48,101 bases of DNA from positions 1 to 48,101 of the forward strand of contig CADBXL010000038.1 in NCBI GenBank assembly GCA_902798615.1, written 5' to 3'. Positions 26,240 through 32,662 of this stretch are shown piece after piece. The position numbers were made by a program, and so were the translations under genes. Source of the stretch: an uncultured Bacteroidales bacterium (GTDB lineage Bacteria > Bacteroidota > Bacteroidia > Bacteroidales > Bacteroidaceae). The notes under the pieces were generated by a model. The model searched no databases, was not told the origin of the DNA, and saw nothing but the letters and a program-made list of their open reading frames with translations. Every line of letters begins with the position of its first letter. Within the stretch, counting starts at the first letter, position 1.

Positions 26240-26557
26240 TTACCACAACACAGAAGCAGCCATCTTGCGGATTGAAGCCACACGTTCGGCAAGTGTAGGG
26301 TTATTCTTTGCCTTCTGGTAGTTATACTTCATCTGCAACTGAAGTAGGGTAGTAGCAGGAATATCGAGGGCTGCCTCAAACATCATTGCTGTATCTGTGG
26401 TAACAGGGCGGCGTTCATTGAGAATATCGTTAAGCACCTTATATGAAATGCCCATACTCTCAGCCAGAACCTTCTGCTGAATGCCGCGCTCCTCAATCTC
26501 GTCTTTTAGCACCTCTCCTGGATGTGTAGGCGTAAAGCCGTATATCATATTTGCCAT
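26240..26557 (-). CDS. higA: HigA-type antitoxin, XRE helix-turn-helix
   Basis: The protein has 105 residues. It begins with the HigA signature TPTHPGEVLKDEIEERGIQQ and the helix-turn-helix LAESMGISYKVLNDILNERR, followed by MMFEAALDIPATTLLQLQM. It neutralises the HigB RNase and represses the operon. It is 12 bp downstream of higB, in the toxin-first order typical of higBA. Confidence 0.92.
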   Translation of the reverse strand: MANMIYGFTPTHPGEVLKDEIEERGIQQKVLAESMGISYKVLNDILNERRPVTTDTAMMFEAALDIPATTLLQLQMKYNYQKAKNNPTLAERVASIRKMAASVLW

Positions 26558-26569
26558 AGATATGTTTAT

Positions 26570-26881
26570 TTATAGATTTGACAATTCTGTAAGTGTGCAA
26601 AGAGTGACAATCGGTTCTTTGCTGATAAGGTCAAGTTTAAACTCAAGCCTATACTGATCATTCACTCTCACAGAATAAGAACCGTCCTTGTCACCACGAA
26701 GAGCCTCGAAGTGTAAGGAACGAAAACGGAACAAGTCATCCATTACGGAAGTGGACTCCAACAAATCGACAGTCTTTCTGTATTTTGAGGCAATCTGTGG
26801 TTGGAACCTATGTTTCTTATCAGAACAATGTCCTTTCTCATATAGCTCACGCAAATATTCCTTTTCGAATCTTATCTCCAT
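26570..26881 (-). CDS. higB: HigB-type toxin, RelE superfamily mRNA interferase
   Basis: The protein has 103 residues: MEIRFEKEYLRELYEKGHCS, DKKHRFQPQIASKYRKTVDL, FRFRSLHFEALRGDKDGSYS, VRVNDQYRLEFKL. This is the Bacteroidales HigB/RelE layout with the basic patch and the R-N-D-Q-Y-R-L strand. It probably cleaves mRNA at the ribosome. The ATG at 26881 is preferred over 26887 for family fit. Promoter box at 26906-26913, flanked by a 9-bp inverted repeat. Confidence 0.9.
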   Translation of the reverse strand: MEIRFEKEYLRELYEKGHCSDKKHRFQPQIASKYRKTVDLLESTSVMDDLFRFRSLHFEALRGDKDGSYSVRVNDQYRLEFKLDLISKEPIVTLCTLTELSNL

Positions 26882-26892
26882 AAGCACACATT

Positions 26893-26956
26893 AATTTGTT
26901 CGGTGCAAAAGTAATAAATAATATTGAGATAATCCACTAAAATCGTGGAACAAATT
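26893..26956 (-). promoter_or_regulatory. higBA promoter with flanking inverted repeat (possible HigA operator)
   Basis: The -7 box TACTTTTG (26906-26913, minus strand) lies between aatttgttc (26893-26901) and gaacaaatt (26948-26956), a perfect 9-bp inverted pair. HigA-type antitoxins bind palindromes over their own promoter, so this pair is a candidate. The wide spacing is a weakness. Confidence 0.4.
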
Positions 26957-27013
26957 GTTTCGTTGTGTTTTTTTAACAATAGACATCTTCGGCAAATCTC
27001 TCTAATTCTTGTT

Positions 27014-27087
27014 TTTTGAGTCGCAAAAGTAAACAAAAAATTGCGTACATCCTGAATTATATAACAACAATTTTGGATATTTTAACA
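27014..27087. repeat. Direct repeat copy B, duplicated topA promoter region
   Basis: This is a copy of 25535-25606 in the same orientation, with a preserved TACTTTTG -7 box (27024-27031) but no gene directly downstream of it. The two copies bracket a 1.4-kb segment with palindromes and higBA. The rest of 26957-27370 holds no believable ORF. Confidence 0.8.
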
Positions 27088-27371
27088 AGAAAACAGACTT
27101 GTTACATTAATCATGCGAGGAATTTGCAGACAAGCGGGCTGTTCTCTGCATATCTACGCGCTTTTTCGCATTGGTTTGTTGAAAATGTAGATTTTGATAT
27201 AAGAAAGTGAAGGGGTGTCTCTAAAAAATGTTGTACTATTGTACCATTGTACCCCCAAAGGCTCTCGCATAAATAAGTTTGAAACTGAAAAATTTAGTTG
27301 AAATGCAAAAACACGGGAGATAATTTTCAAACAACGTGTTTTGAGATATTTTTATAAAAAATATGGAAATA

Positions 27372-27426
27372 TTTGGAGGTGTGAGAAAGTTTGTGTAACT
27401 TTGCACATCTAACATCATTAGATGTG
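27372..27426 (+). promoter_or_regulatory. Promoter and palindrome of the restriction-modification operon
   Basis: A TTTG (27372-27375), a 20-bp spacer and TAACTTTG (27396-27403) give a textbook -33/-7 pair. Immediately after the -7 box is a perfect 8-bp inverted repeat, cacatcta (27404-27411) and tagatgtg (27419-27426), which spans the expected transcription start. It could be an operator or a 5' mRNA hairpin. Confidence 0.7.
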
Positions 27427-27448
27427 AAATTTCCTTTGAACAAATAAG

Positions 27449-28501
27449 ATGGACAAACTGACATATAATGTAATAGATTTATTTTGTGGATGTGGTGGCT
27501 TATCGCTTGGGTTTGAGCATGCAGGCTACAACCTCCTGCTGGGTATAGACATGTGGGAGGATGCGTTGGTTACATACCGGCATAATCACAAAAATAATAA
27601 TACGCTTTGTGCAGATCTTGCCAACTTAAAAGCAGAAACAGTTGAAAAGGAAATTGATAATCAAAAAGTAGATGTTATTATTGGAGGACCTCCTTGTCAG
27701 GGCTTCTCCATTGCAGGAAAACGAATTGTAGATGATGAACGTAATAGTTTGTACAAATCGTTTGTTCGCATGGTTCAGCATTTTAAGCCAAAAGCTTTTA
27801 TGCTTGAAAATGTTCCGAATATTTTGAGTATAGGAAATGGGATTGTACGTGATTCCATATTGAGGGATTTTGAAGAACTTGGGTATACAATCACATATAA
27901 GGTTTGTCTGGCAGCAGATTATGGAGTACCTCAGAATCGCAAAAGGGCAATATTTGTCGGATTGTTAGATGGGACAAAATTTGAATTCCCCGCTCCAACT
28001 GTTAATGTTCCTATAACTTGCAAAGAAGCCATTTCAGATCTTCCTTATGAAACAATAGAAGAAGGAGGTGCATACACTATAGAGCCACAAAGCGATTATC
28101 AGAAACTTATACGTCAAGGAAGTTCGGGAGTGTACAACCATGACATTACGATTCACACACCAAGGACGCAGGAAATTATTGCTATGGTACCAGATGGTGG
28201 TAATTACAAAGATTTACCTTTGGAGTTGCAAAATACCAGGAAGGTACATATTGCATGGACAAGACTGAATAGTAACCGTCCAAGTGTAACTATAGATACA
28301 GGGCATAATCACCATTTTCATTATAAGTATAACAGGGTGCCTACGGCTCGTGAAAGTGCAAGATTTCAGTCTTTCCCTGATACATTTGTGTTTCTTGGCA
28401 ATAAAACAAGTAAATTGAAGCAAATAGGGAATGCCGTTCCTCCACTAATGGCAGAAGCTATAGCAAAACAACTTAAAAAACATCTAAAACATGAAATATA
28501 A
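27449..28501 (+). CDS. DNA cytosine-5 methyltransferase (first of the pair)
   Basis: The protein has 350 residues with all key C5-methyltransferase motifs: I (DLFCGCGG, 10-17), IV with the catalytic cysteine 83 (PPCQGFS, 81-87), VI (ENV, 120-122), VIII (QNRKR, 162-166), IX (RESARFQSFPD, 301-311) and X (GNAVPP, 327-332). The target-recognition region is about 190-290 and is fairly short. It methylates C5 of a cytosine in an unknown site. It overlaps the nuclease gene by 11 bp and leads a three-gene operon. The region is visibly AT-richer than the topA or ruvB genes, which suggests horizontal transfer. Confidence 0.93.
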   Translation: MDKLTYNVIDLFCGCGGLSLGFEHAGYNLLLGIDMWEDALVTYRHNHKNNNTLCADLANLKAETVEKEIDNQKVDVIIGGPPCQGFSIAGKRIVDDERNSLYKSFVRMVQHFKPKAFMLENVPNILSIGNGIVRDSILRDFEELGYTITYKVCLAADYGVPQNRKRAIFVGLLDGTKFEFPAPTVNVPITCKEAISDLPYETIEEGGAYTIEPQSDYQKLIRQGSSGVYNHDITIHTPRTQEIIAMVPDGGNYKDLPLELQNTRKVHIAWTRLNSNRPSVTIDTGHNHHFHYKYNRVPTARESARFQSFPDTFVFLGNKTSKLKQIGNAVPPLMAEAIAKQLKKHLKHEI

Positions 28502-29915
28502 TCCAGAGCATCAGTATAGATGCACAATTATACGTGGTAAAAGCCAAACCGATATGGAGGATTTACTCCCCCTATATGCAAATATGGTTCACAAATATTG
28601 TCCATGTACAGAAGATGTATTCAGAGTGTCATGTTATAGAATACTTTCAAAAGCATTCTTTTCAACAGAAGCTTACGATGAGTTAAGTGACAGTAACCAA
28701 AAGACTATACAGAATCATCTTACAGAAATTGCAGGAACGTTGCTCGGATTGTATTATCCTATACGTGAAGGGAATACTGTATATATTTACGAATCTGATT
28801 CATGTAGGTATTTAGTCGAAAATAATGACTACCCAACATTCTTCAAGAACCTATGTTTGAACTTTCAGTTCCCTAATGGAGCGAAATGGATGCAATATAT
28901 ACAGGAAGATATAGATGCAAATATTCACATAAAGCCATTCTGCTATGTTGTTGATTTGCTGTATCATGCACAAAATCAGACAGACAAGAGACTCCTAACT
29001 AAACAGGAGGTGGGTTATTATGTTCTTAACAATAGTGATGTGTTACAAGGAAAAATACCTACCAGTGTTGTATATGAACGTATTATGTCTGATAGAAAGA
29101 ATAATGTAAAACGTGAGAAATTAAGCGGTTCACACGATTGGCAACATATTAAGGAACAATTTAATCTGCTTGAATTGGCAAACATCATAGAAACTGACGC
29201 TACCTATATATGGTTAAATAAGGAAGAAACGGAAGCTATTTCACTTTTTATTAGGAAAAAGAACGATTTCAGATTTGATGCATATAGCTATTCTTTGTCT
29301 AAAAAAGAAGAAAAGGAGCGTTATTTATATGATTGGAAGGCATCATATGGTTTGTTCAATCCTGAGTTAATTAACCTAAAGACTACTTTTGGCTCTAATA
29401 TTGTTGTAGTAGGACGAAACGAACAAAAAGCAAATGGTGGAGCTACGAAATCTACAGTTGACTTAGGTGATGAAGGTGAAGCTCTTGTATTCCGTTTGGA
29501 ACAAGAACGTGTGCGTAATTATAAAGAACGACTTGTCAATAAGGTACTTTTGTTAGGTAAGACCAAAGGTCTCGGCTATGATATTTCTTCTATTGAGGCT
29601 GATGAAAACCCAAAACGTCCAGAGTTTGCAAGGTATATAGAGGTAAAAGCTACAAAACGTACGACAGAGCCTAACTTTGAGAATACCGCTTGGTCTGACA
29701 CTTTGAATCTAACTACCAAAGAGTGGATTGCTGCTGAACAATATGGGGAATATTATAATATATATCGTGTGTATTTTACCAAAACTAAGACCTATGTTGT
29801 GCGAATACAAAATCCATTCAAGAAAGCAGAAGAAGGTATGATTGAAGTTTTTCCAACAATCTATCAAATGAATTTTGGTGCTGATGTAATCGAAAAAAGA
29901 TATGTTGGAGAATAA
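28491..29915 (+). CDS. Putative restriction endonuclease with C-terminal DUF3883 domain
   Basis: The protein has 474 residues. The C-terminal portion (about 322-445) fits DUF3883, a PD-(D/E)xK-like fold: DLGDEGEALVFRLE (E330), LGYDISS (D364), YIEVKAT (E384-x-K386), then LTTKEWIAAEQYGEYYNIYR. These give a plausible E...D...ExK metal site. The first 320 residues, mostly helical with the segments CLNFQFPNGAKWMQY and LLTKQEVGYYVLNN, are not confidently assigned. They loosely recall Type IIS enzymes of the AlwI kind and would hold DNA recognition. It lies between two methyltransferase genes and overlaps both (11 and 14 bp), so it is inferred to be their cognate nuclease. Confidence 0.75.
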   Translation: MKYNPEHQYRCTIIRGKSQTDMEDLLPLYANMVHKYCPCTEDVFRVSCYRILSKAFFSTEAYDELSDSNQKTIQNHLTEIAGTLLGLYYPIREGNTVYIYESDSCRYLVENNDYPTFFKNLCLNFQFPNGAKWMQYIQEDIDANIHIKPFCYVVDLLYHAQNQTDKRLLTKQEVGYYVLNNSDVLQGKIPTSVVYERIMSDRKNNVKREKLSGSHDWQHIKEQFNLLELANIIETDATYIWLNKEETEAISLFIRKKNDFRFDAYSYSLSKKEEKERYLYDWKASYGLFNPELINLKTTFGSNIVVVGRNEQKANGGATKSTVDLGDEGEALVFRLEQERVRNYKERLVNKVLLLGKTKGLGYDISSIEADENPKRPEFARYIEVKATKRTTEPNFENTAWSDTLNLTTKEWIAAEQYGEYYNIYRVYFTKTKTYVVRIQNPFKKAEEGMIEVFPTIYQMNFGADVIEKRYVGE

Positions 29916-31425
29916 GTTTAAAGTAGCCTCGTTATTTTGTGGTTGTGGAGGCTCAGACCTTGGTATGGTTGGTGGTTTCAAGTACCTTGACAAATGGTAT
30001 GACGAACTTCCTTTCGATATCATATATGCCGCAGATTTCGACAAATGGGCTGTTGAAACATATAATAAAAACTTCAAGAATAAAGCTGTATGCGCAGATG
30101 TTAAAGAGGTTGATTTCAATAGTATACCAGATGTTGATGTAATGATAGGAGGTTTCCCCTGTCAATCATTCAGCACAGTTAATCCTACAAAAGACACAAA
30201 TGATGATCGTGCCAATCTATATAAACAGATAGTTAGGTTTTTGCAAACAAAAAAACCAAAATATTTTATCTGTGAAAATGTCAAGGGCCTTATGACCCTT
30301 AAAGGAGGTAGTATAGTTAATAAAATCATTGGTGAGTTCTGTGATTGTGGTTATAGGGTTCAATACAAACTTCTAAAAGCTGTTGAATATGGCATTCCGC
30401 AAAGGCGTGAACGTGTGATTATTGTAGGCATTAGAAATGATATTGTCTTTAATTATGAATATCCTACACCGATTTGTACAGAAGCACAGGCTACACCATT
30501 AGGAAAAGTTATCGACAAACTGAATATAGAAGAACAGAAATACTATTTCTCACAACGTGCGGTTCAAGGTGTAAAGAATGCCAAAAACAACATGAAACGA
30601 GGACTATGGCAGGATTTATCCAAACCGTGTTTGACTGTTACTGCGCATTTAGCAAAAACAAGCATGAATTCGCGTGACCCAATCCTTCTTGTAGATGCGG
30701 ACAAAGAATTATATCGTAGATTTACACCTCGCGAAGCTGCGAGAATACAATCATTTCCTGATGATTTTCAACTCAATGCTTCTGAGGCAAAATCATATAA
30801 GCAAATAGGAAATGCCGTTCCTCCTGTCTTTATGTGGTATGTTGCCAGACAATTAGAGCGTTCTATTATAGGGCATCAGAATATGACTCCGGAAGAAATA
30901 AAAAAATATATGACACAAAAAGACACGCGCTCATTCTGTCCTGTAAAAGAAAAAGCCCCAAAATACAAGCAACTCAACTTCCTGGACCTCTTCGACCAAT
31001 ACTCTGATAGTCCGATAGTTGAGAACTATATGGCTCATGAGGATTTGCCGGAGTATGGAATAAATATTGATACAACGAAGAACTGCCTCATAAGTCTTGT
31101 GAAGAAGGATAATTTTGAGCAGTATGTCGACAAGTCAGCCAAAATCTACTATACAGGTAAGAAGTTCCCTGCTACCGTGGCACTCAATAAGTTATACTAC
31201 TTTATGCCATACTTGAAAGGTAAAGGAATTCGTGACTTGTACCTCATAAAGATTGCTCGTGTTGGAACTCGCAAAGAAGGACAGAAAGGTGAGGACAAGA
31301 CAGATTTTCGCCTTGTGTTTGAAATCGAGTTTGTCAAGCAACTCTTTGACGAATATAAGCCTGTGGAACTAAAGATATGGCATACGTTTACCGATACCAC
31401 GATGGAAGAAATCGCTATGATGTAG
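29902..31425 (+). CDS. DNA cytosine-5 methyltransferase with C-terminal extension (second of the pair)
   Basis: The protein has 507 residues. Residues 1-325 form a complete C5 methyltransferase: LFCGCGGSDLG (11-21), PCQSFS with cysteine 87, ENV (125-127), QRRERV (167-172), REAARIQSFPDDF (277-289), GNAVPP (303-308). It shares little with the first methyltransferase outside these motifs, so it probably recognises a different strand or site. Residues about 326-507 are an additional domain: an alpha-rich linker (MTPEEIKKYMTQKD), then a beta-rich part with KIYYTGKKFPATVALNKLYY, RDLYLIKIARVG and FRLVFEIEF. I do not recognise it; a PUA-like fold is a guess. The start overlaps the nuclease stop by 14 bp. 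Confidence 0.9.
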   Translation: MLENKFKVASLFCGCGGSDLGMVGGFKYLDKWYDELPFDIIYAADFDKWAVETYNKNFKNKAVCADVKEVDFNSIPDVDVMIGGFPCQSFSTVNPTKDTNDDRANLYKQIVRFLQTKKPKYFICENVKGLMTLKGGSIVNKIIGEFCDCGYRVQYKLLKAVEYGIPQRRERVIIVGIRNDIVFNYEYPTPICTEAQATPLGKVIDKLNIEEQKYYFSQRAVQGVKNAKNNMKRGLWQDLSKPCLTVTAHLAKTSMNSRDPILLVDADKELYRRFTPREAARIQSFPDDFQLNASEAKSYKQIGNAVPPVFMWYVARQLERSIIGHQNMTPEEIKKYMTQKDTRSFCPVKEKAPKYKQLNFLDLFDQYSDSPIVENYMAHEDLPEYGINIDTTKNCLISLVKKDNFEQYVDKSAKIYYTGKKFPATVALNKLYYFMPYLKGKGIRDLYLIKIARVGTRKEGQKGEDKTDFRLVFEIEFVKQLFDEYKPVELKIWHTFTDTTMEEIAMM

Positions 31426-31442
31426 TAAAGTTTTGCAACAAT

Positions 31443-31482
31443 AAAGAGCCTATCCCGATGAAGATTCAGGATAGGCTCTTTT
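31443..31482 (+). terminator. Rho-independent terminator of the restriction-modification operon
   Basis: A 13-bp perfect stem, aaagagcctatcc (31443-31455) and ggataggctcttt (31469-31481), with T residues after it. It lies 18 bp past the stop of the second methyltransferase. Confidence 0.9.
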
Positions 31483-31516
31483 AGTTTATATACAGCTTTG
31501 CACGCCGAGAGAGGAA

Positions 31517-31552
31517 GCCTAACCAAGCCTTCCCAAAGGGAAGGATGTTTTA
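31517..31552. repeat. Dispersed repeat, copy in intergenic DNA
   Basis: A 34-bp match, aagcctaaccaagcctt plus an aaagggaaggatgt half, occurs here and, inverted and with a single mismatch, at about 40204-40237 within the coding region of the amidotransferase-dipeptidase gene. The inner part (cttcccaaagggaag) is palindromic. Confidence 0.8.
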
Positions 31553-31791
31553 TAGACTATATCCCATACACGATGTCACGCCGAGGGTTGTTGCTATCGT
31601 AGTTAGAATGCTTGCAATAGTCTGAAGAATGAATTTCTAAGTTTCATTTTTCATAGTTTTTTTTTTTCGAATGCAAAATCAGCTTTACAAAATCGCAAAA
31701 ATATGGTTCAATTCAAGCATTTGGAAAGCATATCAAGTCATGCTAATGCCTCTTGATTTTGTAATCTTAGCTTGAAACTATGTAAAATTCA

Positions 31792-32010
31792 CGAGAGTTT
31801 TTAGAGAGGGGGGGTGCACTTTTGCCTATTTTTACCCTTTTGCCTGTTGATTATCAGTAGTTTACAACGCGTGTACCCCCCCCTGAAAATACATTTTGGG
31901 GGTACACTTCAAAGAGAGGGGGGTGCACGCTTTCTTTTTGGCTTGATTTCCAGTATGTTATACCCATAAAAACGGCAAAAGTGCACCCCCCCTCTCGCAA
32001 AACTCTCTCG
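31792..32010. repeat. Nested inverted repeat with G/C tracts
   Basis: The outer arms, 31792-31826 and 31974-32010, pair over about 35 bp and contain a G7/C7 run next to gtgcacttttgcc. Inside them is a second hairpin, gtgtaccccc (31871-31880) and gggggtacac (31898-31907), a perfect 10-bp stem. A third agagaggggggtgcac copy lies at 31913-31928. No coding potential. The stretch 31553-31791 holds nothing I can name. Confidence 0.8.
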
Positions 32011-32040
32011 AAAAATATTTTTCGTTTGCTTCAGGTCCGC

Positions 32041-32140
32041 TTCTCCTTCGCTTCTAATCCGTTTCAAATCCGTTGTAAGTCCGTTCCATAGTATGGGAGC
32101 TGAATGGGAGTTACATGGGAGTCACATGGGACTTACTACG
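32041..32140. repeat. tccgtt-type repeat, second copy
   Basis: The units aatccgttgtaagtccgttc and gggagttacatggga-like words match those at 318-397. Both copies lie just downstream of genes and have no ORF. Here they sit past the stop of the CYTH gene. Confidence 0.65.
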
Positions 32141-32167
32141 GACTCTCTACAAACGCACTTTATGGTG

Positions 32168-32662
32168 CTATTGATATTCTTCCGGGAGTTCTTCTTTCCA
32201 GTTAGGGTAGGGATCGGAGAGGAGATGGGAGTTGTAGAAATGGCGGTTGCCTGTTACCTCTGGGCCGAGGAATGATGGACGGTCGAAAAGTTCGTCTTCA
32301 TTCGTGAGTTCCACTTCGGCAAAGAGAAGGCCTTCGTTAGCTCCATGAAACTCGTCAACTTCAAAGGTATGTCCGCCGAATGGCACAAGCCAACGGGTCT
32401 TGTCAACTACACCTCCACGACATAGCTTCAGCATCTCAAGCGCATCTTCCTTTGGAATCTCGCGCTCAAACTCATATCTTGACATACCGCCATTAAGGGA
32501 AGGGCCTTTGATGGTGAGGTATGCCTTCTCGTCACGTAGTCTTATACGGACAGTGGCTCCCTTGCAAGCCATATATCCCTGTTGGATATGTGAGTGCGAG
32601 GAAGCCATTGTCTTGAAAGACCCGTCCTTTGAAACAAGGAATTTTCTTTCTATCTCAAGCAT
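32168..32662 (-). CDS. CYTH domain protein (triphosphate-tunnel family)
   Basis: The protein has 164 residues. The CYTH signature ExExK is EIERK at residues 3-7, followed by the tunnel strands ATVRIRLRDEKAYLTIKG, MSRYEFEREIP, WLVPFGGHTFEVDEFHG and LLFAEVELTNEDE. Members hydrolyse inorganic triphosphate or act as class IV adenylyl cyclases; in Bacteroidota the former is likelier. It starts 7 bp after a small membrane-protein gene, so the two form an operon. Confidence 0.9.
   Translation of the reverse strand: MLEIERKFLVSKDGSFKTMASSHSHIQQGYMACKGATVRIRLRDEKAYLTIKGPSLNGGMSRYEFEREIPKEDALEMLKLCRGGVVDKTRWLVPFGGHTFEVDEFHGANEGLLFAEVELTNEDELFDRPSFLGPEVTGNRHFYNSHLLSDPYPNWKEELPEEYQ

Follow-up and report, generated by a model that had tools for sequence, protein, structure and literature searches.

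Gene content and signals of the operon

The element described here is a three-gene restriction-modification (R-M) operon in contig CADBXL010000038.1, from an uncultured Bacteroidales bacterium. The term 'window' refers to the full 48,101-nucleotide stretch of this contig and not to the operon alone. All features lie on the forward strand unless stated otherwise. The first gene (27449..28501) encodes a 5-methylcytosine (m5C) DNA methyltransferase of 350 amino acids without a tail, recognized from the list of open reading frames (ORFs) and from Pfam family PF00145. The second (28491..29915) encodes a BpuJI-type restriction endonuclease of 474 amino acids, recognized from the ORF list, Pfam, PADLOC and sequences in the PDB. 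The third (29902..31425) encodes another m5C DNA methyltransferase, of 507 amino acids, in which a catalytic domain (PF00145; 29917..30858, from Pfam) is followed by a C-terminal tail. The three proteins are designated M1, R and M2, respectively.

M1 and M2 match PF00145 with E values of 3.2e-76 and 2.7e-75, and both contain the motifs FCGCG, PCQ, ENV, QxRxR and GNAV. They are the only two PF00145 genes found in the genome assembly, which is 94.75% complete. A preliminary description of this DNA had placed two dissimilar m5C methyltransferases around a 474-residue protein, and the ORFs and PF00145 matches confirm this arrangement, as they do the overlaps of 11 bp between M1 and R and of 14 bp between R and M2.

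All 16 complete loci (window included) have the gene order M1-R-M2, and therefore chance is ruled out as an explanation for the three-gene set. In this count (L-numbers denote loci and G-numbers genomes), L019, L020 and L030 are identical with L015, L016 and L014, and each was counted once. Outside the count are L031, which is truncated by a contig end; G155, which falls under the family cut-off; and G196, in which R is in two split frames and no M1 or M2 match above 90 bits is found over the 15 kb of L017.

Upstream of M1, a pattern scan finds TTTG-N20-TAACTTTG at 27372..27403, which we take to be the Bacteroidota promoter consensus. The window has 8 matches to this pattern where shuffles predict 0.61, in agreement with the strong promoter previously claimed at this position; a sigma70-type scan of the window does not list it. 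Between the promoter and the start codon lies a 9-bp inverted repeat, CACATCTAACATCATTAGATGTG (27404..27426), a possible operator or leader hairpin. Downstream of M2, an intrinsic terminator is indicated by folding energy at 31443..31481 (-22.6 kcal/mol, z -7.7, 13-bp outer stem), where the preliminary description had put one at 31443-31482; a hairpin scan permitting loops of 3-8 only does not list it. Rfam at gathering threshold gives no match in 26800-32200.

The nuclease and its predicted recognition site

R contains a BpuJI_N DNA-recognition domain (PF11564, residues 5-282, 28503..29336; Pfam E 7.3e-53) and a NOV_C domain (PF13020, residues 330-435, 29478..29795; Pfam E 4.2e-11), the latter of which we take to be the renamed DUF3883. 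PADLOC assigns residues 1-467, essentially the full length, to REase_II, a type II restriction enzyme (E 1.9e-101). In a phmmer search of PDB sequences, R.BpuJI (2vla, 5hlt) is matched with 195.8 bits across residues 1-290, and its chains are the sole relatives of the window R up to an E value of 1. Because of these PF11564 and R.BpuJI matches, the recognition half, for which no family could previously be assigned with confidence, now has a named family and a relative of solved crystal structure. The DUF3883-like C-terminus, on the other hand, had been read correctly.

The alignment with BpuJI covers the N-terminal domain, which is all that the PDB chains contain. Over this domain the window R is 40.2% identical to BpuJI (PDB 2vla), and its N75 and Q218 align with N67 and Q208 of BpuJI. 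BpuJI is described as a type IIS enzyme, and N67 and Q208 as needed for DNA binding (PMC9240713). The equivalent of N67 is present in 16 of 16 R sequences and that of Q208 in 14 of 16 (window included in both); the 14 orthologous R, again with the window, have both, and 62 BpuJI residues are invariant across them. Around the two positions the window R closely resembles BpuJI, with the stretches KTxxNHxTEIAG and QHIxEQxNxLELANxI. In the nuclease half, the pattern E330...D364...E384-x-K386, which had been proposed as a metal site, is located as claimed, and its four residues are invariant in all 16 aligned R (window included); we infer that they form a PD-(D/E)XK-type metal site in NOV_C.

From the conservation of N67 and Q208 together with the 40.2% identity, the BpuJI site is predicted for the window R. 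This site we take to be CCCGT/ACGGG, with C on both strands, and it is probably the site of the window system as well. The homology with BpuJI and its site thus supports the earlier proposal of a type IIS-like system whose asymmetric site bears cytosine on both strands. The preliminary description was to count as refuted if a close characterised homologue of known site existed; as far as novelty is concerned, BpuJI is such a homologue, though at 40% identity.

Several observations weigh against this prediction. The window R, at 40% identity, is far from near-identical to BpuJI, and the DNA-binding residues checked by name are two, N67 and Q208. In addition, L012 (G137) and L013 (G006) form a sister subfamily in which the Q208 position is R, the nuclease is only about 25% identical and M1 is 70-74% identical. 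Alike M1 with divergent R means that a similar M1 is no guarantee of the same R specificity, and a change in nuclease specificity beside a conserved M1 is possible in these two loci. Consequently, R might belong to the BpuJI fold family but recognize another asymmetric site, which both methyltransferases would follow. The 40% identity permits such a change and the sister subfamily illustrates a substitution at a binding position, but N67 and Q208 are retained in 14 of 14 orthologues and the residues around them in the window R are close to those of BpuJI; a different site is therefore considered unlikely.

The BpuJI_N domain is sporadic. It is found in 8 of 201 genomes of the family, 7 of them above the cut-off (including G196 with its two split frames), and in 1 of 395 genomes of a phylum-wide sample, the window's own; it is absent from the 12 other same-genus genomes listed. 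In G196:C51, the BpuJI_N matches (L009, L011) are in two adjacent short frames, which suggests a broken R gene. One scan for close relatives named as carriers Prevotella multiformis, P. lacticifex, Alistipes, Muribaculaceae, Paludibacteraceae and Fibrobacter intestinalis, among others. The sporadic occurrence, with none in the 12 same-genus genomes, points to horizontal acquisition, which we infer on this basis. Phage records searched with R give no match, and plasmid records give two weak ones (23% and 28% identity).

The same sporadic presence in the genus (BpuJI_N in 0 of the 12 other genomes listed) might be expected if the operon were a decaying remnant without function. This is very improbable, since the three ORFs are intact, retain their core motifs and are flanked by a promoter-like and a terminator-like sequence. 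Judged from its sequence, the core operon is an ordinary and complete member of the BpuJI type. We regard it as very probable that the whole is a BpuJI-type IIS R-M operon, likely directed at CCCGT/ACGGG, with an exchangeable accessory module on M2. In such a system, the BpuJI_N domain of R would bind the asymmetric 5-bp site and the NOV_C domain would cut close to it. M1 and M2 would each methylate one cytosine, one strand apiece; the original BpuJI operon presumably also has one methyltransferase per strand. With both strands methylated by M1 and M2, it is proposed, host DNA would be protected and unmodified incoming DNA cut. The module of M2 would most likely serve as an accessory targeting element.

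Directly upstream of the operon and divergent from it, 26240-26887 on the reverse strand encodes a HigA antitoxin (TIGR02607) and a HigB-like toxin (PF05015). In the intergenic region downstream (31800-32000), GGGGGTGCAC-like blocks are seen by eye to be repeated in both orientations. In the loci of relatives, prfB adjoins CYTH in 26 of 29; none shows topA, the loci ending 1500 bases past CYTH.

The C-terminal tail of M2

The unusual part of the operon, unremarked in the preliminary description, is the tail of M2. About 200 residues extend beyond the last methyltransferase motif, of which about 150 (30961..31422) make up a mobile C-terminal module of no known family, designated module A. Nine of the 16 orthologous M2 have module A, five have no tail (L016, L024-L027) and two have other tails (L021, L028). 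The methyltransferase fold therefore does not depend on module A, given that the catalytic domain forms the C-terminus in 5 of 16 M2.

Module A is borne by R-M proteins of many unrelated kinds. Within the window's family it is present in 51 of 301 genomes (its own included). Besides its own, 6 of 295 order-level genomes have it, one of these as a short fragment (E 2.3e-4), and 395 phylum-level genomes yield no further copy. The list of occurrences has 62 places. Stretches were read for 41, another 5 were read as BpuJI-type M2 loci (window included) and 16 were left out; 40 stretches gave 42 host rows. Pfam scans cover 24 of the 42 rows and the window, with tables per protein for the window and ten hosts and the remaining assignments taken from family tallies. 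All 25 scanned proteins are R-M-like: 13 have PF00145, 5 are Eco57I/N6 methyltransferases, 1 is an N6_N4 methyltransferase, 4 have DUF2357 and PDDEXK_7, 1 has HNH, and the last, L108, is assigned solely by a TaqI_C match below threshold and an NPPW motif noted on inspection by eye. The four DUF2357 and PDDEXK_7 proteins (L121-L123, L125), on which module A is C-terminal, are presumably comparable to McrC-like nucleases. At L126 (1243-2412), a module-A relative is C-terminal on an HNH protein, the N-terminus of which looks EVE-like by eye; Pfam gives HNH only. In L113 and L114, module A is N-terminal on a fused protein combining m5C and N6-adenine (N6A) methyltransferases.

The strongest sign of exchange is in L087, where the DNA of a non-orthologous m5C gene, whose product has a helix-turn-helix (HTH)-like N-terminus by eye, is 78.7% identical to 30960-31494 of the window. 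The alignment begins at the KYKQLNF linker and spans the stop codon and the terminator, and the methyltransferase part is unaligned. Therefore, it appears that module A has been exchanged as a cassette and, on these comparisons, it is gained, lost and swapped among R-M genes as one unit. Plasmid records give no module A match. Viral contigs give 20 pattern matches with 0 confirmed, and among phage records one unannotated, unverified record from human faeces matches module A with 46% identity over 79%.

For family searches, a profile (A4) was built from 37 of the 42 rows and the window (38 members), with four short fragments and L100 excluded. No convincing match to module A was obtained in Pfam, PADLOC, PHROGs, NCBIfam or PDB sequences, and the window copy itself has no match in Pfam or among PDB sequences. 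Matches regarded as chance are UBX in Pfam (0.0008, 1 of 38 members), PbeC in PADLOC (0.0028, 1 of 38), phrog_4299 (0.0096, window module A) and phrog_17649 (5 of 38, best 0.049) in PHROGs, the best NCBIfam match (0.028), and SLD5 among PDB sequences (0.021, module-A profile). At the level of sequence profiles, an EVE/ASCH-type or PUA-like reader of modified bases was rejected for module A, with an hhalign probability of 0.4% between A4 and 12 EVE sequences; ASCH yielded 2 sequences, too few for a comparison. The tail of L028, designated tail B, recurs on the m5C methyltransferase L173 with 46% identity from QLSLF on. It is found in 4 of 151 family genomes, namely that of L173 and three with weaker relatives (28-31% identity); two hosts of the latter were read, L226 being a type I R subunit and L228 containing a Methylase_S domain. 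For tails A and B, hhalign gives a probability of 0.6%, and a common family is not supported. Module A is a domain not described before, and by its occurrence among the hosts sampled it is a marker of R-M proteins in Bacteroidaceae; it could therefore aid in the detection and naming of genes of this kind.

Just upstream of module A in many hosts is a QLDLF-like peptide. The consensus for binding to the bacterial beta sliding clamp is given as QL[SD]LF and more broadly as QxxLF (PMC12309361). The M2 of P. lacticifex (L029) has QLDLF ahead of module A, in the same place as the degenerate QLNFL of the window (M2 residues 357-361, 30970..30984); that of P. multiformis (L021) has QLDLF as its extreme C-terminus, without module A; and that of L028 has QLSLF ahead of tail B, also without module A. 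Hence 3 of 16 M2 tails contain QL[SD]LF (mean 0.003 after shuffling, with none of 10000 shuffles attaining 3) and 4 of 16 contain QxxLF (mean 0.32 after shuffling, with 2 of 10000 attaining 4), counts that are not independent events because the sequences are related. These two patterns are from the literature, and looser ones were picked after the sequences had been seen. Neither M1 nor R contains QL[SDN][LFM][FLWMI] (none in 16 of 16 each). Among 397 ORFs of at least 200 amino acids (148,852 residues, six frames, ORFs with the module A signature excluded), the canonical pattern has 3 matches, all in M2 tails, namely those of L021, L028 and L029, the last of which bears module A but escaped the exclusion pattern.

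A survey of 127 closed, non-duplicate m5C methyltransferase ORFs (open, duplicate and PCQ- or GNxV-less ORFs dropped) found QL[SD]LF in 1 of 22 with module A, in 3 of the 14 that have a different tail (L021, L028, L173) and in 0 of 91 without a tail. The sample is non-random, comprising 30 loci, 60 more hand-picked down the same list with module hosts skipped, and the earlier loci. The canonical peptide is present in 4 of the 43 module-A rows (42 hosts plus the window), and QL[SDN][LF][FLW] is matched by 16. For reference, PIQLDLFTDY is present in the Y-family polymerase encoded by the window's own genome. Near-misses of the consensus are also seen at or near the C-termini of two other m5C methyltransferases, L151 (YTQLAFSF) and L154 (YKELNLFGDYD).

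Two readings of the tail may be weighed. In the first, M2 would be tethered through its tail to the replication sliding clamp, coupling methylation of the site on one strand to the fork; this is put forward tentatively, at somewhat less than an even chance. As part of the same reading, and as tentatively, clamp-tethering tails in Bacteroidaceae may be exchangeable cassettes on m5C and on N6A/N4-cytosine methyltransferases, with the module also on type IV-like nucleases. It is a point against clamp binding that the window QLNFL fails both QL[SD]LF and QxxLF. In the second reading, to which we give a chance just short of even, the tail would be a structural or DNA-binding extension without a replication partner, the QLxxF-like peptide belonging to an amphipathic helix packed against the module. 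The peptide indeed continues directly into a conserved DLFxQYxxxxIxxN stretch. Moreover, many module hosts have no good motif (the sequence is ELDMF or PLDLS in HTH-like m5C hosts, and the peptide is absent from DUF2357 and HNH hosts), and 3 of 9 module-bearing M2 (L012, L014, L023) lack it, observations that also weigh against clamp tethering. Against this second reading, canonical QLDLF and QLSLF are also found in M2 tails without module A (L021, L028).

In the literature searched, no clamp-bound R-M methyltransferase was found. A neighbouring idea, that of plasmid methyltransferases partnering DNA polymerase I, is presented in one report (PMC7736820).

Comparison with known systems

The safety of half-methylated, newly replicated host DNA in R-M systems is usually ascribed to enzyme levels. 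If the tethering of M2 is true, a clamp-binding methyltransferase would physically connect modification to the fork. The resemblance to beta-clamp binders is that QLDLF or QLSLF, both canonical, stands in 3 of the 16 orthologous M2 tails and PIQLDLFTDY in the host Y-family polymerase; the window copy differs, QLNFL being outside QxxLF. An analogy may be drawn with DNMT1 and PCNA in eukaryotic maintenance methylation (PMC9690074): an m5C methyltransferase bound to the replication clamp would promptly re-methylate new DNA. The homology proposed is confined to the m5C catalytic fold, and the analogy is one of working.

NOV_C is a broad family. The window R resembles other PF13020 nucleases in its C-terminal domain match (E 4.2e-11) and in the E...D...ExK residues, and differs from them in joining NOV_C to BpuJI_N.

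The closest comparison is with BpuJI of Bacillus pumilus (2vla, 5hlt). The window R has, like it, a BpuJI_N domain with the N67 and Q208 equivalents, together with a C-terminal nuclease domain, and the operon appears to follow the same asymmetric-site logic of one methyltransferase per strand. In contrast, identity in the recognition domain is 40%, and the window M2 has a mobile C-terminal module that may set it apart. Through the core operon, the BpuJI family gains a Bacteroidota branch, and the earlier guess on recognition may be replaced by a concrete predicted site.

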